A DNA stretch of 44,729 bases from a virus: the IMG/VR virus record IMGVR_UViG_3300027881_001057, positions 1-44,729 of that record. One strand, 5' to 3'. Positions within the stretch are counted from its first letter, which is position 1. The number at the start of each line of letters is the position of its first letter. Below the pieces are notes generated by a model. The model saw only the letters and a list, made by a program, of their open reading frames with translations, did not search any database and had not been told where the DNA came from. Below, in pieces: positions 31,088 to 36,139 of this stretch. The position numbers and the translations under genes are program-made.

Positions 31088-31155
31088 AGGTCAGGCGCTG
31101 GGCGCAGGCGAGATTCCAACCCTTGCTCGTCTGGGTTCGATTCCTAGCTGGCCTG
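31088..31155 (+). tRNA. tRNA-Trp(CCA), short D arm
   Basis: Acceptor AGGTCAG/CTGGCCT pairs; anticodon loop TTCCAAC gives CCA; T arm CTGGG-TTCGATT-CCTAG. The D region is about four bases shorter than usual and one anticodon-stem pair (A-C) is mismatched, so it may be an unusual or weak tRNA. It is the only Trp candidate. Confidence 0.55.
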
Positions 31156-31189
31156 CGAAGGCATATTGGCAACAGGATAACGAGAGACT

Positions 31190-31211
31190 GGGGACTCCCT
31201 AAAGAGTCCCC
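31190..31211. terminator. Strong hairpin between the first two tRNAs
   Basis: GGGGACTC / GAGTCCCC perfect 8-bp stem with a six-base loop. It may be a terminator or a processing signal before tRNA-Gly. Confidence 0.55.
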
Positions 31212-31214
31212 CTT

Positions 31215-31291
31215 GGGTCTGTAGTGTCAATGGTCAAGCATTTCTGCCTTCCAAGCAGACGGTCTGAGTTCGAATCTCAGTAGGCCCTCCA
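31215..31291 (+). tRNA. tRNA-Gly(UCC)
   Basis: Acceptor GGGTCTG/TAGGCCC, anticodon loop CTTCCAA, T arm with GTTCGAATC, encoded CCA. Confidence 0.9.
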
Positions 31292-31371
31292 AGCAGCAAG
31301 CTCGAAAGAACAGAGAACAGGACAACGTTCTTGACAGACGTGGAGCAACCTTCCCGGCAGCCAAAGCCGCA

Positions 31372-31445
31372 GGATGGTCGCCAACGGCCTTCTCAGAGTC
31401 TGACGGGTCAGCTTCATGCAGGTTCAATTCCTGCCTCCCCATCCA
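31372..31445 (+). tRNA. Unresolved tRNA-like sequence with T arm and CCA end
   Basis: GCAGG-TTCAATT-CCTGC is a perfect T arm, followed by CTCCCCA-T-CCA. No 5' strand pairing with CTCCCCA was found within 90 bases upstream, and no credible anticodon loop is present. It may be a decayed tRNA gene. A GGGGAG just downstream (31456-31461) pairs with CTCCCC as a simple hairpin. Confidence 0.35.
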
Positions 31446-31513
31446 ATATGGGAACCGGGGAGAGCCAAGGCTGGCACGCTCCATAAATAGGAGTGGTGGG
31501 CGTTGCTGCTCTT

Positions 31514-31587
31514 TTCGGGGTAGTTCAATCCGGCAGAACATCTGGTTCTGGACCAGAAGGTTGGAGGTTCGACCCCTCCCCCCGAAG
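31514..31587 (+). tRNA. tRNA-Gln(CUG)
   Basis: Acceptor TTCGGGG/CCCCGAA, anticodon arm TCTGG-TTCTGGA-CCAGA, T arm GGAGG-TTCGACC-CCTCC. No encoded CCA. Confidence 0.9.
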
Positions 31588-31592
31588 CACAC

Positions 31593-31663
31593 ACCTCCAT
31601 CGTCCATGGGTAGGACTCCAGGTTCTCAACCTGGGAAACAGGGTTCGAATCCCTGTGGAGGTA
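31593..31663 (+). tRNA. tRNA-Glu(CUC)
   Basis: Acceptor ACCTCCA/TGGAGGT, anticodon arm CCAGG-TTCTCAA-CCTGG, T arm CAGGG-TTCGAAT-CCCTG. Confidence 0.92.
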
Positions 31664-31666
31664 CGA

Positions 31667-31740
31667 CGGGATATGGCGCAGCTTGGCAGCGCGCCTGGTT
31701 TGGGGCCAGGAAGTCGGAGGTTCGAATCCTCCTATCCCGA
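31667..31740 (+). tRNA. tRNA-Pro(UGG)
   Basis: Acceptor CGGGATA/TATCCCG, anticodon arm CCTGG-TTTGGGG-CCAGG, T arm GGAGG-TTCGAAT-CCTCC. Begins four bases after tRNA-Glu. Confidence 0.93.
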
Positions 31741-31743
31741 CGT

Positions 31744-31808
31744 TGACAGCCAGATCTGGTTCTCCTCCCGGATTACCGTTCGTGCCTCCCAGCCGATCCT
31801 GACTGTCA
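31744..31808 (+). other. Structured inter-tRNA spacer, closed by TGACAG/CTGTCA
   Basis: The 65-base spacer ends in a perfect 6-bp pairing and contains CCAG-AT-CTGG. It is tRNA-sized but has no T loop. Confidence 0.4.
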
Positions 31809-31811
31809 CAT

Positions 31812-31884
31812 GGCGTAGTAGCTCAACGGTCAGAGCACCACCCTGTCAAGGTGGAAGGTGGCAGTTCGAATCTGCTCTACGTCG
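31812..31884 (+). tRNA. tRNA-Asp(GUC)
   Basis: Acceptor GGCGTAG/CTACGTC, anticodon arm CCACC-CTGTCAA-GGTGG, T arm GGCAG-TTCGAAT-CTGCT. Confidence 0.93.
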
Positions 31885-31886
31885 CT

Positions 31887-31940
31887 GCGAGGCGCATAGA
31901 AAGGAGAGGGCCGGGTGCCCTGTCTGAGTGTGCGCTTCGC
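31887..31940 (+). other. Structured inter-tRNA spacer, 10-bp stem
   Basis: GCGAGGCGCA pairs with TGCGCTTCGC (one wobble) around a GC-rich centre (GGGC...GCCC). Confidence 0.45.
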
Positions 31941-31943
31941 TAT

Positions 31944-32018
31944 GGCTCCATCGTCCATGGGATAGGATCACGGACTTTCAATCCGTGGAACTGGGTTCGA
32001 GTCCCAGTGGAGTCACCA
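31944..32018 (+). tRNA. tRNA-Glu(UUC)
   Basis: Acceptor GGCTCCA/TGGAGTC, anticodon arm ACGGA-CTTTCAA-TCCGT, T loop TTCGAGT, encoded CCA. Confidence 0.93.
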
Positions 32019-32075
32019 AGAGGGGTGATCTGACCGCCCTGTCCAGCCCAGCATGGACACCCCAATCGCCCCTCT
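32019..32075 (+). other. Structured inter-tRNA spacer, 11-bp stem
   Basis: AGAGGGGTGAT pairs with ATCGCCCCTCT (one wobble); the inner TGTCCA/TGGACA forms a second stem. Followed by TTTCTTT, so a terminator is an alternative reading. Confidence 0.45.
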
Positions 32076-32080
32076 TTCTT

Positions 32081-32151
32081 TCGGGATTGGTGTAATGGCA
32101 GCACGCAAGGCTTTGGCCCTTGTGGTGGGGGTTCGAGTCCCTCGTCCCGAG
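32081..32151 (+). tRNA. tRNA-Gln(UUG)
   Basis: Acceptor TCGGGAT/GTCCCGA, anticodon arm CAAGG-CTTTGGC-CCTTG, T loop TTCGAGT. Confidence 0.9.
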
Positions 32152-32157
32152 CTTCTT

Positions 32158-32229
32158 TGCCAGGTAGCACAATGGCAGTGCAGCGCCCTGTTAAGGCGAT
32201 GGTTGAAGGTTCGAATCCTTCTCTGGCAG
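32158..32229 (+). tRNA. tRNA-Asn(GUU)
   Basis: Acceptor TGCCAGG/TCTGGCA, anticodon loop CTGTTAA, T arm GAAGG-TTCGAAT-CCTTC. One mismatch at the base of the anticodon stem. Confidence 0.88.
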
Positions 32230-32230
32230 C

Positions 32231-32299
32231 GTTGAGGTTCCCTCGGTAGGGCGACTGGGTTGTGATCCCGGTTGTGGAGTTCGACTCTCCGCCTCACCC
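32231..32299 (+). tRNA. tRNA-His(GUG)
   Basis: Anticodon arm CTGGG-TTGTGAT-CCCGG, T arm TGGAG-TTCGACT-CTCCG. Acceptor GTTGAGG/CCTCACC has one mismatch. The 3' end is C-rich (C73 as in His tRNAs). Confidence 0.75.
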
Positions 32300-32304
32300 C
32301 ATTT

Positions 32305-32377
32305 GGGGGCTTAGCTCATCAGGAAGAGCACCTGGCTTGCAACCAGGAGGTGGTCGGTTCGAGTCCGACAGCTTCCA
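32305..32377 (+). tRNA. tRNA-Ala(UGC)
   Basis: Acceptor GGGGGCT/AGCTTCC, anticodon arm CCTGG-CTTGCAA-CCAGG, T arm GTCGG-TTCGAGT-CCGAC. Confidence 0.93.
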
Positions 32378-32382
32378 CTCGC

Positions 32383-32459
32383 GTGGCTTTAGCTCAGCTT
32401 GGGAGAGCACCTGTCTGAAAAGCAGGAGGTCCCTGGTTCGATCCCAGGAGGTCACACCA
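32383..32459 (+). tRNA. tRNA-Phe(GAA)
   Basis: Acceptor GTGGCTT/AGGTCAC, anticodon loop CTGAAAA, T arm CCTGG-TTCGATC-CCAGG, encoded CCA. Confidence 0.92.
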
Positions 32460-32470
32460 TCCGCCTTGAC

Positions 32471-32479
32471 TGCTAGCAT
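32471..32479 (+). promoter_or_regulatory. Extended -10 TGCTAGCAT directly before a start codon
   Basis: TAGCAT is followed by seven bases and ATG 32487, giving a leaderless arrangement identical in spacing to that at 15176. Confidence 0.6.
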
Positions 32480-32486
32480 TTGTGTC

Positions 32487-32804
32487 ATGGCCCTCTTATT
32501 CAGTGATTCGAAGGTAGCTCTCGCTGTGGACGAGGGGACCGACCCCATCAAGGCCACGTTCGAGACGATGTACATCCTGGTCAAGACGACCGCTATCACA
32601 GCAGGCGCGCTTGACATCGAAGCCCAATGGTCCATCGACGGCAATACATGGGTGTCGTTCACGACACCTGATGACCTACCTCAGATCGTGGCAGCAGGCA
32701 ACACGTGGCTGGCCGCTCTACCTGCTAGAGCACCATTCATGCGGCTGTTCTACGACGTGACCACGGGTCCAGTTACCTTTGAACTAGCCGTCACTGGATT
32801 CTAA
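32487..32804 (+). CDS. Small plus-strand protein inside the tRNA array (structural-like)
   Basis: 105 residues (MALLFSDSKVALAVDEGTDP). Beta-rich text (DIEAQWSIDGNTWVSFTTPD; MRLFYDVTTGPVTFELAVTG) looks like a small tail or capsid accessory domain. No ribosome site; the -10 lies seven bases before the ATG, so leaderless translation is likely. Encoded between tRNA-Phe and tRNA-Arg. Confidence 0.7.
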   Translation: MALLFSDSKVALAVDEGTDPIKATFETMYILVKTTAITAGALDIEAQWSIDGNTWVSFTTPDDLPQIVAAGNTWLAALPARAPFMRLFYDVTTGPVTFELAVTGF

Positions 32805-32809
32805 AACTT

Positions 32810-32883
32810 AGCCGTGTAGCTCAATGGAAGAGCGCCAGAATACGGATCTGGGTCAAGTGGGGGTTCGAGTCCTCTCGCGGCTA
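32810..32883 (+). tRNA. tRNA-Arg(ACG)
   Basis: Acceptor AGCCGTG/CGCGGCT, anticodon arm CCAGA-ATACGGA-TCTGG, T loop TTCGAGT. Confidence 0.88.
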
Positions 32884-32884
32884 C

Positions 32885-32906
32885 TAGCATATGTTCGCAG
32901 GAACGT
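32885..32906 (+). promoter_or_regulatory. TAGCAT -10 overlapping a GTTCG-type element
   Basis: TAGCAT (32885-32890) directly followed by ATGTTCGCAGGAACGT (32891-32906), then the ribosome site AGGAGG for the gene at 32920. Confidence 0.6.
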
Positions 32907-32919
32907 CTAGGAGGAAACT

Positions 32920-33579
32920 ATGACGATTGAAACTGGGAAGCGACAAGTCCTCGTGGACGCTGTCCTCGACTTCCCGTCTGTCGGCGCAGGCGACAGTGAG
33001 CTATTGACCGTTGCCGTACCGCAGGTTCGTCTCGGGCAGGCAGTACACGTGACCCCTGCAAACAATGTGGCAGCCACCGCGTCCCAGGGCACTCTGACAA
33101 TGGATGTCATCCCCGCCGACACGAACACAGTGACCATCGATGCGAAGGTCTACACCTTCCAGACAGTGCTCCTCGTCGGAGACGGCAATGTTGCGATCGG
33201 CGCGAATGTCGGTGAGTCACAGGTCAACCTTGTCGCAGCGATCAACCTCGACGGAGTTGAGGGCGTGAACTACGGCGCAGGCATGACGAAGCATCCGACC
33301 GTGAGCATCGGCGACTTCGCTGCCAACGACGCGATCCTGACCGCCAACACTCCAGGAGTGGCAGGCGACACGATCGCCACCACCGAGACCTTCACGCCAG
33401 TCACGGACATTTTCGATGGTGCGACCCTCGGAACCACCCGAGCGGGAGCGGACTACTCAGGCCTCACAGCCTCAGGGTTCGTCTCAGCAGCAGACGTGGT
33501 ATCCGTCATCCTGGCCAACGAGACGGCAGGAGCATTGAATCCAGACTCAGGGACGTTCCGCGTCATCGTCTGGTTCTAA
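32920..33579 (+). CDS. Structural-type protein inside the tRNA array
   Basis: 219 residues from ATG 32920 with a strong AGGAGG site. Contains the phage virion-associated pattern TVTIDAKVYTFQTVLLVGDG followed by NVAIGANVGESQVNLVAAIN, found in domains of many phage structural proteins. The C-terminus is beta-type (TFRVIVWF). On the plus strand, away from the structural operon. Probably a decoration or fibre accessory protein. Confidence 0.7.
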   Translation: MTIETGKRQVLVDAVLDFPSVGAGDSELLTVAVPQVRLGQAVHVTPANNVAATASQGTLTMDVIPADTNTVTIDAKVYTFQTVLLVGDGNVAIGANVGESQVNLVAAINLDGVEGVNYGAGMTKHPTVSIGDFAANDAILTANTPGVAGDTIATTETFTPVTDIFDGATLGTTRAGADYSGLTASGFVSAADVVSVILANETAGALNPDSGTFRVIVWF

Positions 33580-33584
33580 CGATT

Positions 33585-33658
33585 GGGCATCGAGAGCAGC
33601 CGGTGAAGCCGGTTCTCTGATATAGAACTGTTGCTAGGTTCAACTCCTAGGGTGCCCA
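33585..33658 (+). tRNA. tRNA-Ile(GAU)
   Basis: Acceptor GGGCATC/GGTGCCC, anticodon arm GTTCT-CTGATAT-AGAAC, T arm CTAGG-TTCAACT-CCTAG. Confidence 0.9.
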
Positions 33659-33662
33659 CTAT

Positions 33663-33738
33663 GCACGGGAAGCTCAACTGGACGAGCATCTGTCTTACAA
33701 GCAGAAGGAAGTGGGTTCGATTCCTACCCCGTGTACCA
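33663..33738 (+). tRNA. tRNA-Val(UAC)
   Basis: Acceptor GCACGGG/CCCGTGT, anticodon arm TCTGT-CTTACAA-GCAGA, T arm GTGGG-TTCGATT-CCTAC, encoded CCA. Confidence 0.92.
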
Positions 33739-33739
33739 C

Positions 33740-33811
33740 ACGCCCAACGCCTAAATGGTGAGGCTCCCGGCTCTTAACCGGGCGAACAAGGTTCGATTCC
33801 TTGTGGGCGTA
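33740..33811 (+). tRNA. tRNA-Lys(CUU)
   Basis: Acceptor ACGCCCA/TGGGCGT, anticodon arm CCCGG-CTCTTAA-CCGGG, T arm CAAGG-TTCGATT-CCTTG. Confidence 0.92.
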
Positions 33812-33813
33812 CA

Positions 33814-33880
33814 GACCCGAAGACTCGCGTAGCGAGCGAGCGTCACCGAAAGGTGGTCGTGGTGTAAGTGCACGCGGGTC
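33814..33880 (+). ncRNA. Structured tRNA-sized RNA without a T loop
   Basis: GACCCG (33814-33819) pairs with CGGGTC (33875-33880). Inside are hairpins CTCGC-GTA-GCGAG and CACC-GAAA-GGTG (a GNRA tetraloop). The length is tRNA-like, but the T-loop consensus is absent. The following stretch to 33962 is also GC-rich and pairs locally (GAGGGT...ACCCTC). A new non-coding RNA or a processing element. Confidence 0.4.
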
Positions 33881-33962
33881 CTAAATGGAGCTAGCGTGGC
33901 CAGCGCCTTGGACGGGGCAAACGTGCTAGGCGACCCGAGGGTGTCGGCTTAACAACCCTCAT

Positions 33963-34047
33963 GGAAGGTGCCGCTGGGTTGGCTGGCAACTGGTGTCGAA
34001 TGCCAGGGTATCTTTATCGGGTAGGGGTTCGACTCCTCCACCTTCCT
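33963..34047 (+). tRNA. tRNA-Ser(CGA)
   Basis: Acceptor GGAAGGT/ACCTTCC, anticodon arm CTGGT-GTCGAAT-GCCAG, long variable arm (GGTATCTTTATCGGGTA), T loop TTCGACT. Discriminator T is unusual for Ser. Confidence 0.8.
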
Positions 34048-34049
34048 CT

Positions 34050-34115
34050 ACTGGCGGGAACGCTGATCCGGTCGCAAAGCCCCGGTAGGCCATCCCACGA
34101 GGAGGTACCGCCAGT
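34050..34115 (+). ncRNA. Structured tRNA-sized spacer closed by an 8-bp stem
   Basis: ACTGGCGG (34050-34057) and CCGCCAGT (34108-34115) are perfectly complementary and start three bases after tRNA-Ser. An inner CCGG/CCGG stem is possible. No T-loop consensus and no clear anticodon. Acceptor-like closure of a 66-base RNA. Confidence 0.45.
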
Positions 34116-34118
34116 TAC

Positions 34119-34193
34119 GAGCGTCTGATGGGAACAGGCATACCTCTCTGGCTCAAAACCAGAGGCTTCTCGGTTCGACTCCGAGGACGCTCA
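34119..34193 (+). tRNA. tRNA-Leu(CAA)
   Basis: Acceptor GAGCGTC/GACGCTC, anticodon arm TCTGG-CTCAAAA-CCAGA, T arm CTCGG-TTCGACT-CCGAG. The variable region is short for Leu. Confidence 0.85.
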
Positions 34194-34194
34194 C

Positions 34195-34272
34195 GACCTC
34201 CAGCCTACGGGCAGAGAACAGCAGAGTAGAAACGAGTACCCCTCGGAGTAAGTCGATAGCTACCCGGAGGTC
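34195..34272 (+). ncRNA. Structured spacer closed by GACCTCC/GGAGGTC
   Basis: A perfect 7-bp pairing closes a 78-base segment that fills the gap between two Leu tRNAs. Inner helices GCC-TACG-GGC and CGAG-TACCC-CTCG give a multi-arm shape. No T loop. Confidence 0.45.
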
Positions 34273-34277
34273 ACCTA

Positions 34278-34361
34278 GCCGATCTGGTGGAACGGCAGAC
34301 ACGCTGGTCTTAGGAACCAGTGCCTTCGGGCGTGTGGGTTCGACTCCCACGATCGGTACCA
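34278..34361 (+). tRNA. tRNA-Leu(UAG)
   Basis: Acceptor GCCGATC/GATCGGT, anticodon arm CTGGT-CTTAGGA-ACCAG, long variable arm (TGCCTTCGGGCGT), T arm GTGGG-TTCGACT-CCCAC, encoded CCA. Confidence 0.92.
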
Positions 34362-34379
34362 GCGGGTGCAAACCCCGTG

Positions 34380-34447
34380 GCTGGTCGCACCAGCAGCCCG
34401 ATTCCTGCATTCCGGGCCGTAGGCTGATCGAGCAGGAGAGAGATCAG
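34380..34447 (+). other. Structured inter-tRNA spacer with three hairpins
   Basis: GCTGGT-CGC-ACCAGC (34380-34394), GCCCG...CGGGC (34396-34417) and CTGATC...GATCAG (34424-34447) follow one another between two Leu tRNAs. Confidence 0.45.
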
Positions 34448-34457
34448 TCAATGTTTT

Positions 34458-34532
34458 GCGAGGATGACGGGAACTGGCATACCTCACCGGCTTAAACCCG
34501 GTGGTCTGTGGGTTCGACTCCCACTCCTCGTA
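34458..34532 (+). tRNA. tRNA-Leu(UAA)
   Basis: Acceptor GCGAGGA/TCCTCGT, anticodon arm ACCGG-CTTAAAC-CCGGT, T arm GTGGG-TTCGACT-CCCAC. Body resembles tRNA-Leu(CAA). Confidence 0.88.
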
Positions 34533-34535
34533 CTC

Positions 34536-34618
34536 GGTAGGTCCGCAATCGGCGATGCACCTTGGTTGCTAACCAAGCAGGCTTCCGGGCCTTCGGGGTT
34601 CGACTCCCCGGCCTACCT
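34536..34618 (+). tRNA. tRNA-Ser(GCU)
   Basis: Acceptor GGTAGGT/GCCTACC, anticodon arm CTTGG-TTGCTAA-CCAAG, long variable arm, T arm CGGGG-TTCGACT-CCCCG. Confidence 0.9.
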
Positions 34619-34620
34619 CT

Positions 34621-34726
34621 ACCGCTTAGCGGCGGTACGGCCCGAGAGAACTTGGGGCGAGGTCCGTTAACTTCCTCGCCGGGTGACTCCGTAACAAGTC
34701 ACTGGCCAGGGGCCGGTTCCCTGGCC
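34621..34726 (+). ncRNA. Structured spacer of consecutive stem-loops
   Basis: After CCGC-TTA-GCGG come three perfect stems: GGCGAGG/CCTCGCC (34656-34680), GTGACT/AGTCAC (34683-34702) and GGCCAGGG/CCCTGGCC (34704-34726), with loops of 11, 8 and 7 bases. No open reading frame. The most strongly structured spacer in the array. Confidence 0.5.
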
Positions 34727-34729
34727 GAT

Positions 34730-34805
34730 GCCAGCCAAGCTCATGAGGATGAGCAACGGCCTTGTAAGCCGAAGGTAGCGGGTTCGAATCCTGCGGCTGG
34801 CTCCA
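34730..34805 (+). tRNA. tRNA-Thr(UGU)
   Basis: Acceptor GCCAGCC/GGCTGGC, anticodon loop CTTGTAA, T arm GCGGG-TTCGAAT-CCTGC, encoded CCA. Confidence 0.92.
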
Positions 34806-34806
34806 C

Positions 34807-34878
34807 ACCCCTGTAGCTCAACGGAAGAGCATCCGCCTCCTAAGCGGAAGGGTCCCTGTTCGAATCGGGGGAGGGGTA
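34807..34878 (+). tRNA. tRNA-Arg(CCU)
   Basis: Acceptor ACCCCTG/GAGGGGT (one mismatch at pair 7), anticodon arm TCCGC-CTCCTAA-GCGGA, T loop TTCGAAT. Confidence 0.88.
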
Positions 34879-34879
34879 C

Positions 34880-34955
34880 TGGCCTGTAGCTCAAAGGTCA
34901 GAGCAGCGGCCTCATAAGCCGTTCGATGAGGGTTCGAATCCTTCCGGGCCAACCA
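34880..34955 (+). tRNA. tRNA-Met(CAU), elongator type
   Basis: Acceptor TGGCCTG/CGGGCCA, anticodon loop CTCATAA, T arm GAGGG-TTCGAAT-CCTTC, encoded CCA. Fully paired acceptor, unlike the initiator at 35986. It could instead be an Ile tRNA modified at C34. Confidence 0.85.
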
Positions 34956-34956
34956 C

Positions 34957-35026
34957 GCACCCGCCAACTGGAATGTGCCAGGGCCTTCTAAGCCCAGGAG
35001 TGAGGGTTCGAATCCTTCCGGGTGTA
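34957..35026 (+). tRNA. tRNA-Arg(UCU)
   Basis: Acceptor GCACCCG/CGGGTGT, anticodon loop CTTCTAA on a GGGC/GCCC stem, T arm GAGGG-TTCGAAT-CCTTC. Confidence 0.85.
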
Positions 35027-35030
35027 CCTA

Positions 35031-35102
35031 GACCTCATAGCTCAATGGAAGAGTGCCAGCGTCCGAAGCTGAGGGTTGGAGGTTCGAATCCTCCTGAGGT
35101 CA
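35031..35102 (+). tRNA. tRNA-Arg(CCG)
   Basis: Acceptor GACCTCA/TGAGGTC, anticodon loop GTCCGAA on a CAGC/GCTG stem, T arm GGAGG-TTCGAAT-CCTCC. Confidence 0.85.
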
Positions 35103-35105
35103 CGT

Positions 35106-35176
35106 GACACCGTGAGTGAATGGCTAACTACCTGGCTGCAACCCAGGAGATCTCGGTTCGACTCCGAGCGGTGTCT
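35106..35176 (+). tRNA. tRNA-Cys(GCA)
   Basis: Acceptor GACACCG/CGGTGTC, anticodon arm CCTGG-CTGCAAC-CCAGG, T arm CTCGG-TTCGACT-CCGAG. Confidence 0.9.
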
Positions 35177-35200
35177 CTACTGCGCGCTGGATATAGGTTC

Positions 35201-35686
35201 CTAGACGTGTTCTAGCGCGTCGATGAGTTCTTGGATCTCCCAGAGCATCGATTCGAAGGTAAACGACTTCTGAGAGCCTTCGTACGAAAGAATTTCACGT
35301 TCCACCATGAGATGGATGCGTGGCCGGTCGGTCGGATTCCATACGGCATGCGGAAGCCAGTGACGAACAATGAAGGGTTCCACTGGCTCATAAAACGCTC
35401 CATCTTCCCAGAAGAAGCCTGCGGGCCTGACAGGGAAATGCCACCTCTCCCGGAAAGGCGGGACATCACAATGGGGGACTACAAAGCCTCCCGGCAACAA
35501 CCGCGCCCACCACCCTTGATGTAGCGGTCCCGGCAACAAGTCGGTCAGCAGCGTCTGGTCGATGGTGGCCGTGGACCTGCCGTGGGCGATCCCGTGAGTC
35601 GCGTAGACAGTCGGTGGTGTCCACGCTGCCACTTCTAGAGCATCGAAGATCGCTACTGATTGATGTAGAGGCCCTGAATGTTCCAT
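35201..35686 (-). CDS. 2-oxoglutarate/Fe(II) oxygenase-like protein (Asp/Asn beta-hydroxylase type)
   Basis: 161 residues from ATG 35686. GGFVVPHCDVPPF gives an HxD pair (His72, Asp74); LPHAVWNPTDRPRIHLMVE gives the distal His (113) and an Arg (123), the iron and 2-oxoglutarate ligands of the double-stranded beta-helix oxygenases. WHFPVRP between them fits the core. Such enzymes hydroxylate proteins or small molecules. It is encoded antisense inside the tRNA array, overlapping the small gene at 35653 by 34 bases. Substrate unknown; a later start is possible. Confidence 0.7.
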   Translation of the reverse strand: MEHSGPLHQSVAIFDALEVAAWTPPTVYATHGIAHGRSTATIDQTLLTDLLPGPLHQGWWARLLPGGFVVPHCDVPPFRERWHFPVRPAGFFWEDGAFYEPVEPFIVRHWLPHAVWNPTDRPRIHLMVEREILSYEGSQKSFTFESMLWEIQELIDALEHV

Positions 35687-35826
35687 CGTTGGAATTCGGC
35701 TATCGGCTGGTTGTCCTCGTCGTAGAAAACGAAAGTGTCTTCCTTGTCTGTGGTGCTGTAGCGGTCAGCGGTCAGATCCAGCCTCTCATTATCGAACATG
35801 AGGAGGGTGTACTTGTTCTCGGCCAT
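35653..35826 (-). CDS. Small protein upstream of the oxygenase gene
   Basis: 57 residues from ATG 35826 with ribosome site TAGGAAG (MAENKYTLLMFDNERLDLTA..., ending FQRWNIQGLYINQ). Compact beta-type sequence. Probably coupled to the oxygenase gene, whose start lies inside it. Confidence 0.65.
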   Translation of the reverse strand: MAENKYTLLMFDNERLDLTADRYSTTDKEDTFVFYDEDNQPIAEFQRWNIQGLYINQ

Positions 35827-35844
35827 CTTCCTATCTTACTCCAT

Positions 35845-35917
35845 GGGTCCCTAGCTCAACGGACAGAGCAAGTGGCTTTTAACCACGAGGTTCTGGGTTC
35901 GAATCCCAGGGGGCCTA
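35845..35917 (+). tRNA. tRNA-Lys(UUU)
   Basis: Acceptor GGGTCCC/GGGGCCT, anticodon loop CTTTTAA, T arm CTGGG-TTCGAAT-CCCAG. Confidence 0.92.
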
Positions 35918-35985
35918 CTAAGTCTCTCGTTGCCATGCTAAGGTCTTCACTGCCAACTGTGAGGACTCTCACCGACGCAGGGTGG

Positions 35986-36051
35986 AGAAATTGGTATCTC
36001 GCCTGGCTCATAACCAGGAGGTTGCGGGTTCAAGTCCCGTCCCTGCTACCA
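35986..36051 (+). tRNA. Initiator-like tRNA-fMet(CAU)
   Basis: Acceptor CGCAGGG/CCCTGCT leaves C1 and T72 unpaired, the mark of bacterial initiators. The D arm starts TGGAG, the anticodon arm is CCTGG-CTCATAA-CCAGG, the T loop is TTCAAGT and CCA is encoded. The body follows bacterial initiator tRNA closely, but the three G-C pairs of the anticodon stem are only partly kept (TGG/CCA). Confidence 0.8.
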
Positions 36052-36052
36052 A

Positions 36053-36139
36053 GCCGACGACCCCACTGTGGAGTGGGAGCGGGCCGTAACCCCGTGGCCT
36101 CTTTAGGCGAAGTAGGTTCGACTCCTACCGGCGGCACCA
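36053..36139 (+). tRNA. tRNA-Tyr(GUA), unusual C33
   Basis: Acceptor GCCGACG/CGGCGGC (one mismatch), D stem CCCAC/GTGGG, anticodon arm GCGGG-CCGTAAC-CCCGT, long variable arm (GGCCTCTTTAGGC), T arm GTAGG-TTCGACT-CCTAC, encoded CCA. Position 33 is C instead of the near-invariant T. Confidence 0.7.

Follow-up and report, generated by a model that had tools for sequence, protein, structure and literature searches.

Paired-end spacers in the tRNA array of a tailed phage fragment, with a predicted conserved RNA shared by three phages

The tRNA array of a tailed phage fragment of 44.7 kb in IMG/VR (IMGVR_UViG_3300027881_001057, analysed over all of its 44,729 nucleotides and called the window here) raises the question of what the longer spacers between its tRNA genes are; RNAs of unknown role have long been annotated in the tRNA clusters of phages T4 and T5. 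A preliminary description of the locus held that most long spacers fold on themselves through complementary ends, and proposed that they are new small RNAs, tRNA-like decoys or guides for processing of the long precursor. The paired-end architecture of the longer spacers is more than chance, and it recurs beyond this phage, in unrelated phages. A structural rule common to many phage arrays makes the processing of dozens of tRNAs from one transcript a testable question, and one predicted conserved RNA, the element E5, is gained for annotation.

Spacers, named here after their flanking tRNAs, were scored for end pairing by the duplex energy between their first 16 and last 20 nt against a null of 300 dinucleotide shuffles, with spacers carrying a T-loop consensus excluded from the spacer tests. 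Five window spacers are closed beyond these shuffles, Pro>Asp, Asp>Glu, Glu>Gln, Ser>Leu(caa) and Leu(caa)>Leu(tag) (p 0.003-0.027, Table 1), each by the stem first described for it. The minimum free energy (MFE) z-score is modest in the last two, so the closing stem rather than overall stability stands out there. Other stretches singled out in the preliminary description stood only in part. At 33814-33880, in the first half of the Lys>Ser spacer, the pairing GACCCG/CGGGTC exists but lies outside the MFE structure, where a competing stem forms, leaving the module equivocal; it is missing in the relative G001, where the spacer is 6 nt long. The hairpins at 34380-34447 are present but ordinary against shuffles (MFE z about -1.5, p 0.08-0.09) and have no closing stem, and those at 34656-34726 are real but merely the 3′ part of the five-hairpin element E5. 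The 222-nt Gly>Gln spacer is also closed and contains a T-arm-like hairpin; its positional homologues in G001 and G003 have this T-arm in common with it, as well as an outer AGCAGCA strand. Reading this spacer as a permuted tRNA or a tmRNA was considered and dropped, as no complete acceptor and anticodon arrangement supports it.

Syntenic arrays were identified in G001 (locus L085), G023 (L093) and partly G003 (L086), and further arrays in the more distant relatives G022, G020 and G015. Protein-based searches for more arrays of this lineage yielded only G001 and G003, the useful relatives coming from a terminase search and an E5 DNA pattern; the terminase has a single distant match among named phages (39%) and many in viral metagenomes. 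These relatives are few, and the tests were designed after the sequences had been seen. When 3′ ends were exchanged among the spacers of one array, with a per-array permutation p that rests on few spacers (mostly 5-14), own ends paired better in the window (p 0.0008), G001 (0.0002), G023 (0.005), G022 (0.0004) and G015 (0.002), as well as in the named unrelated phages NiceHouse (0.0014), Sixama (0.0018), DSS3_MAL1 (0.009) and Hena1 (0.0004). Taken alone, Scooby (0.055 and 0.26 in two runs), phiCbK (0.33) and Virsaitis27 (0.08) gave no significant result. The pooled result holds when spacers possibly hiding a tRNA at relaxed settings are removed, for 46 as well as for 55 spacers (p 0.0001 in either case). 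Counted by single-spacer shuffles, 15 of 24 spacers are closed in the close lineage against 1.2 expected, with 5/14 in the distant relatives and 17/46 in the named unrelated phages; the controls gave 1/9 for operon spacers of E. coli K-12 and 9/120 for random window segments.

The closing stems are also fixed in position. Of 28 strong stems, 27 have a 5′ strand that begins 0-3 nt past the tRNA and 23 a 3′ strand that stops 2-5 nt ahead of the next tRNA; the 3′ tails left over are nearly free of G (T42 A30 C26 G3 in 101 letters). Together, the fixed positions and the G-poor tail suggest that a closed spacer consists of a short leader of the ordinary kind and a module placed on the 3′ end of the preceding tRNA.

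Comparison between phages shows that the pairing is kept as the letters change. Four orthologous sites (Pro>Asp, Glu>Gln, Ser>Leu and Leu>Leu) have little sequence in common, and in a cross-phage test each 5′ end paired best with the 3′ end from the same phage in 11/11 rows, indicating covariation without sequence conservation. The Pro>Asp orthologues in G001 and G003 are closed by other stems, those of Glu>Gln in G001 and G023 by different sequences, and the spacer after Ser in G001 by a different 13-bp stem; stem ends can differ as far as GAACGACAGTGG/CCACTGTCGTTC in G001 versus GGACGGCAAT/ATTGCCGTCC in G003. In the G023 homologue of the Leu(caa)>Leu(tag) element the inner motif AGTAAGTCGATAGCTACCCGGAG is retained and the stem altered. 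Twelve other contigs matching the inner motif of 34195-34277 carry no tRNA, and these matches were taken as chance. The sense strand folds better than the antisense strand, both for closing stems (p 0.005) and for whole spacers (p 0.001), and this better folding of the transcribed strand points to RNA rather than DNA structure. Structured RNA between the tRNAs, as originally proposed, is thus backed by shuffles, end-swap tests, covariation and sense-strand bias.

E5 stands apart in that its sequence is conserved as well. The element (MFE z about -3) has homologues at L085:8626-8737 and L093:7520-7629, which form one RNA family in three phages with the window copy. Across these phages 94% of cells are paired and 14/34 pairs have changed on both sides yet still pair, a value as high being reached in 0/500 shuffles, and slid alignments collapse. 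Hairpins 1 and 4 are invariant over much of their length, as is a 3′ CGAT. No Rfam match was obtained for E5, its covariance model found no further copy in 23 loci and 18 records, and a looser DNA pattern gave no additional homologues. Judged from these alignments, E5 is a new conserved RNA in three phages, and because of this conservation it is the leading candidate for an RNA that acts in trans. The earlier proposal of new small RNAs, here predicted ones, is supported for E5 by its conserved loops and compensatory changes in three phages, and otherwise by analogy with the stable RNAs of T4 and T5. A conserved, structured Glu>Pro element, with CGACTCGGGA..AAAACTCGCCCTGGT..GGCCACTTGGGTCAAAGTGGC, was also observed in G001 and G003 (L085:4880-5020 and the L086 spacer) and is absent from the window.

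As for what the closed spacers do, their pairing with flanking tRNAs was measured in predicted tRNA-spacer-tRNA ensembles. Native closed spacers are predicted to pair with the flanking tRNAs by 1.46 kcal/mol versus 5.37 kcal/mol for shuffled spacers, the native value being the lower in 28 of 29 (Wilcoxon 3e-7). Closed spacers transplanted to other sites give nearly the same insulation (2.23 kcal/mol), which suggests that it is a property of the closed fold. Insulation is accordingly the function we favour, by inference from these ensembles. We consider it somewhat more probable than its opposite that the longer spacers are self-contained RNA modules that insulate neighbouring tRNAs and are released as tRNA-sized RNAs, a few of them perhaps trans-acting. 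Under such a model, the longer spacers would be selected for folding on themselves, the stem linking the nucleotides right after one tRNA (offset 0-3) with those right before the next. At the 5′ end of the next tRNA this would leave a leader that is short (mostly 2-5 nt), single-stranded and nearly without G. In the polycistronic precursor the modules would stop spacer RNA from pairing with tRNAs, expose RNase P and 3′-processing sites, and be excised intact as tRNA-sized stem-loops, as the stable RNAs of T5 and T4 appear to be. The interior of most modules would drift freely, and a minority, E5 above all, is conserved and probably has a further role in trans. RNase P is known to act more slowly, often by orders of magnitude, when the leader pairs with the 3′ RCCA or with leader sequence lying more distally (PMC10731613). 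The processing guides of the preliminary description would survive in modified form, as insulation plus a free leader, given the fixed position relative to tRNA ends and the lowered tRNA pairing.

Several points weigh against insulation by these modules. Cleavage by RNase P is about 10-fold slower in an E. coli example where a stable stem lies just upstream (PMC10731613), so stems near the leader could also delay cleavage. Insulation may be a by-product of any stable local fold, its energies were computed without tRNA tertiary structure or modification, and the sizes of the end windows (16 and 20 nt) were picked after the sequences had been seen. Many adjacent tRNAs have spacers of 1-5 nt that need no module, a relative may hold a bare spacer of 1-3 nt at the same place (Pro>Asp and Asp>Glu in G023), and E5 shows no significant insulation in the predicted ensembles.

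The most serious competitor, in our judgement unlikely, is that every spacer represents a separate gene for a small RNA that has a trans function of its own, the closing stem being the terminal helix of a compact RNA. E5 fits this reading in retaining loops and structure across three phages, as do the inner motif kept in the Leu>Leu element, the conservation of the Glu>Pro element in G001/G003, and the precedent of T4 RNAC and RNAD, which are real RNAs from a tRNA region (PMC3014915, PMC9697503). Most orthologous sites, however, keep the stem but not the interior sequence, spacer elements come and go between close relatives, and each phage would need many unrelated RNAs that all have identical end geometry. 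Decayed tRNA genes, of which only the outer stem was retained so that flanking tRNAs mature, would account for the tRNA-like size of the spacers, and truly degenerate tRNAs (Trp, Arg-TCT) do occur in the same array. Such an origin is nevertheless improbable: closed spacers have no tRNA or other Rfam family score at E<=5, their stem lengths differ from the 7 bp of acceptor stems, and no tRNA occupies the orthologous positions tested in relatives. The same lack of likeness by covariance model, together with the unconserved sequences at orthologous sites, leaves the proposal of tRNA-like decoys without support.

Cutting of the precursor between tRNAs by RNase III or another endonuclease, with the stems as its signals, would explain double-stranded stems of 6-14 bp placed exactly between tRNAs, but stem length is very variable (a perfect 6 bp at Pro>Asp), no sequence is common to the stems, and most tRNA junctions have no space for such a site; this too we regard as having a low probability. 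Lowest of all do we rate DNA-level inverted repeats, that is, insertion or recombination sites of attC-like type in place of RNA structures. The presence of modules does vary between relatives as such elements might; against this, the transcribed strand outfolds its complement, the stems contain G-U pairs, and no end sequence is common to the spacers, the reason for which attC-like and mobile-hairpin readings were dropped.

The array in which these modules lie is given with its features in Table 1. When the degenerate Trp(cca), Arg(tct) and Tyr(gta) tRNAs are added, it serves all 20 amino acids. Two protein genes on the positive strand (32487-32804 and 32920-33579) lie inside the array, oriented opposite to the neighbouring genes and without a Pfam match for either. 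Between tRNA-Cys and tRNA-Lys, the protein encoded on the negative strand at 35201-35686 matches aspartyl/asparaginyl beta-hydroxylase below threshold (E 0.0003). Elsewhere, the array of the distant relative G015 includes a tmRNA (L089:6861-7249) with the predicted tag GEPTFTVATSEDIWSAFEQTELVSV, and the Met>Arg spacer of G001 (L085:9647-9715) has a weak beta_tmRNA match (E 0.0018) far under the gathering score.

Table 1. Features of the tRNA array in window coordinates; end-pairing p is taken against dinucleotide shuffles and z is that of the whole-spacer MFE.
Feature	Coordinates	Strand	End-pairing p	MFE z	Description
tRNA array	31088..36139	+			27 ARAGORN tRNAs plus three degenerate ones
tRNA Trp(cca)	31088-31156	+			degenerate; overlooked at ARAGORN default settings
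Gly>Gln spacer	31292..31513	+	0.010	-3.0	222 nt; closed by 13-bp stem 31292-31304/31498-31510
Pro>Asp spacer	31742..31811	+	0.020	-2.5	closing stem 31744-31749/31803-31808; 3′ tail CAT
Asp>Glu spacer	31886..31943	+	0.003	-6.4	closing stem 31887-31898/31929-31940 (12 pairs, 2 G-U); tail TAT
Glu>Gln spacer	32019..32080	+	0.003	-4.2	closing stem 32019-32029/32065-32075 (11 bp); tail TTCTT
Lys>Ser spacer, first half	33813..33883	+	0.096	-2.5	possible closed module; competing stems
Ser>Leu(caa) spacer	34049..34118	+	0.027	-0.9	closing stem 34050-34057/34108-34115; tail TAC
Leu(caa)>Leu(tag) spacer	34195..34277	+	0.007	-1.5	closing stem 34195-34201/34266-34272; tail ACCTA; inner motif AGTAAGTCGATAGCTACCCGGAG
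Leu(tag)>Leu(taa) spacer	34362..34457	+	0.99	about -1.5	three hairpins; not closed
E5	34620..34729	+		about -3	five consecutive hairpins (34620-34726) between tRNA-Ser(gct) and tRNA-Thr(tgt)
tRNA Arg(tct)	34955-35028	+			degenerate, D-arm poor, conserved in G001; overlooked at default settings
tRNA Tyr(gta)	36053-36139	+			listed among degenerate tRNAs; overlooked at default settings

With regard to RNAs already known, no window spacer has an Rfam match at gathering score, GOLLD and ROOL included, and blastn of the array against phages matched tRNA and coding features alone, among the matches listed. GOLLD and ROOL are phage RNAs often found close to tRNA islands, of unknown function (PMC12286853); they differ from the window spacers in being hundreds of nucleotides long, belonging to conserved Rfam families and forming nanocages. 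A further comparison is with bacterial Y RNA-like (YrlA) RNAs, tRNA-mimicking noncoding RNAs that go with the Ro/TROVE protein. Weak YrlA and tRNA-Sec matches in the window were rejected by position, as they fall on tRNAs; for YrlA these are two matches of 19.8 and 24.7 bits (cut-off 69), with none on a spacer. In Gordonia phage Sixama and Streptomyces phage Genie2 (L098, L102), genes for Ro-like RNA-binding proteins lie inside the region of tRNA genes or next to it, and the protein is a possible partner of spacer RNAs in these phages; no TROVE protein was found in the window or in 17 related records, many of which are fragments. In the polycistronic valVW precursor of E. coli, spacer stems influence the order and rate of RNase P cleavage (PMC10731613), while E. 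coli operon spacers, unlike those of the window, rarely close end to end (1/9).

T4 RNAC and RNAD (species 1 and 2) come from the tRNA region and have no known role (PMC3014915), and both are detected by Northern blot (PMC9697503). RNAC is like the window modules in being strongly folded and in coming from the tRNA region. In contrast to the closed window spacers, neither T4 RNA has a significant terminal stem (p 0.10 and 0.29); both come from the 3′ end of the tRNA cluster, and RNAC has a T-arm. The grouping of T4 and T5 RNAs goes by place rather than sequence, with no homology needed for membership, and the window spacers likewise lie inside a phage tRNA cluster, on the same strand as the tRNAs, and are compact with paired ends. 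E5 has no match to T4 or T5 RNAs, and model R1 none at the T4/T5 loci.

The closest parallel is found in T5, whose record (AY543070) annotates RNAI, RNAIII, RNAIV, RNA2H, RNA1, RNA2 and RNA3 within the tRNA cluster; for most, the annotation is a stable RNA whose function is unknown. Like the window modules, these RNAs share the strand of the tRNA genes between or beside which they lie, in some cases directly adjoining, and are tRNA-sized or somewhat larger (73-172 nt, compared with mostly 55-80 nt for closed window cores). A terminal stem with a short tail is shared as well, and is significant in five of the seven (RNAIII 0.002, RNA2H 0.012, RNA3 0.014, RNA2 0.020 and RNAIV 0.036); the 222-nt Gly>Gln spacer resembles RNA1 and RNA2, which are tRNA-like stable RNAs. 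No sequence relation was detected between the two sets, and the T5 RNAs are annotated as stable whereas the window modules, alike in architecture, are predictions. A general rule may be proposed tentatively, with less than even confidence: spacers of phage arrays beyond a few nucleotides would tend to close on themselves, insulate their neighbours and present a leader, and the stable RNAs of T4 and T5 would be excised insulators, some of which, E5 being an example, were recruited to act in trans.

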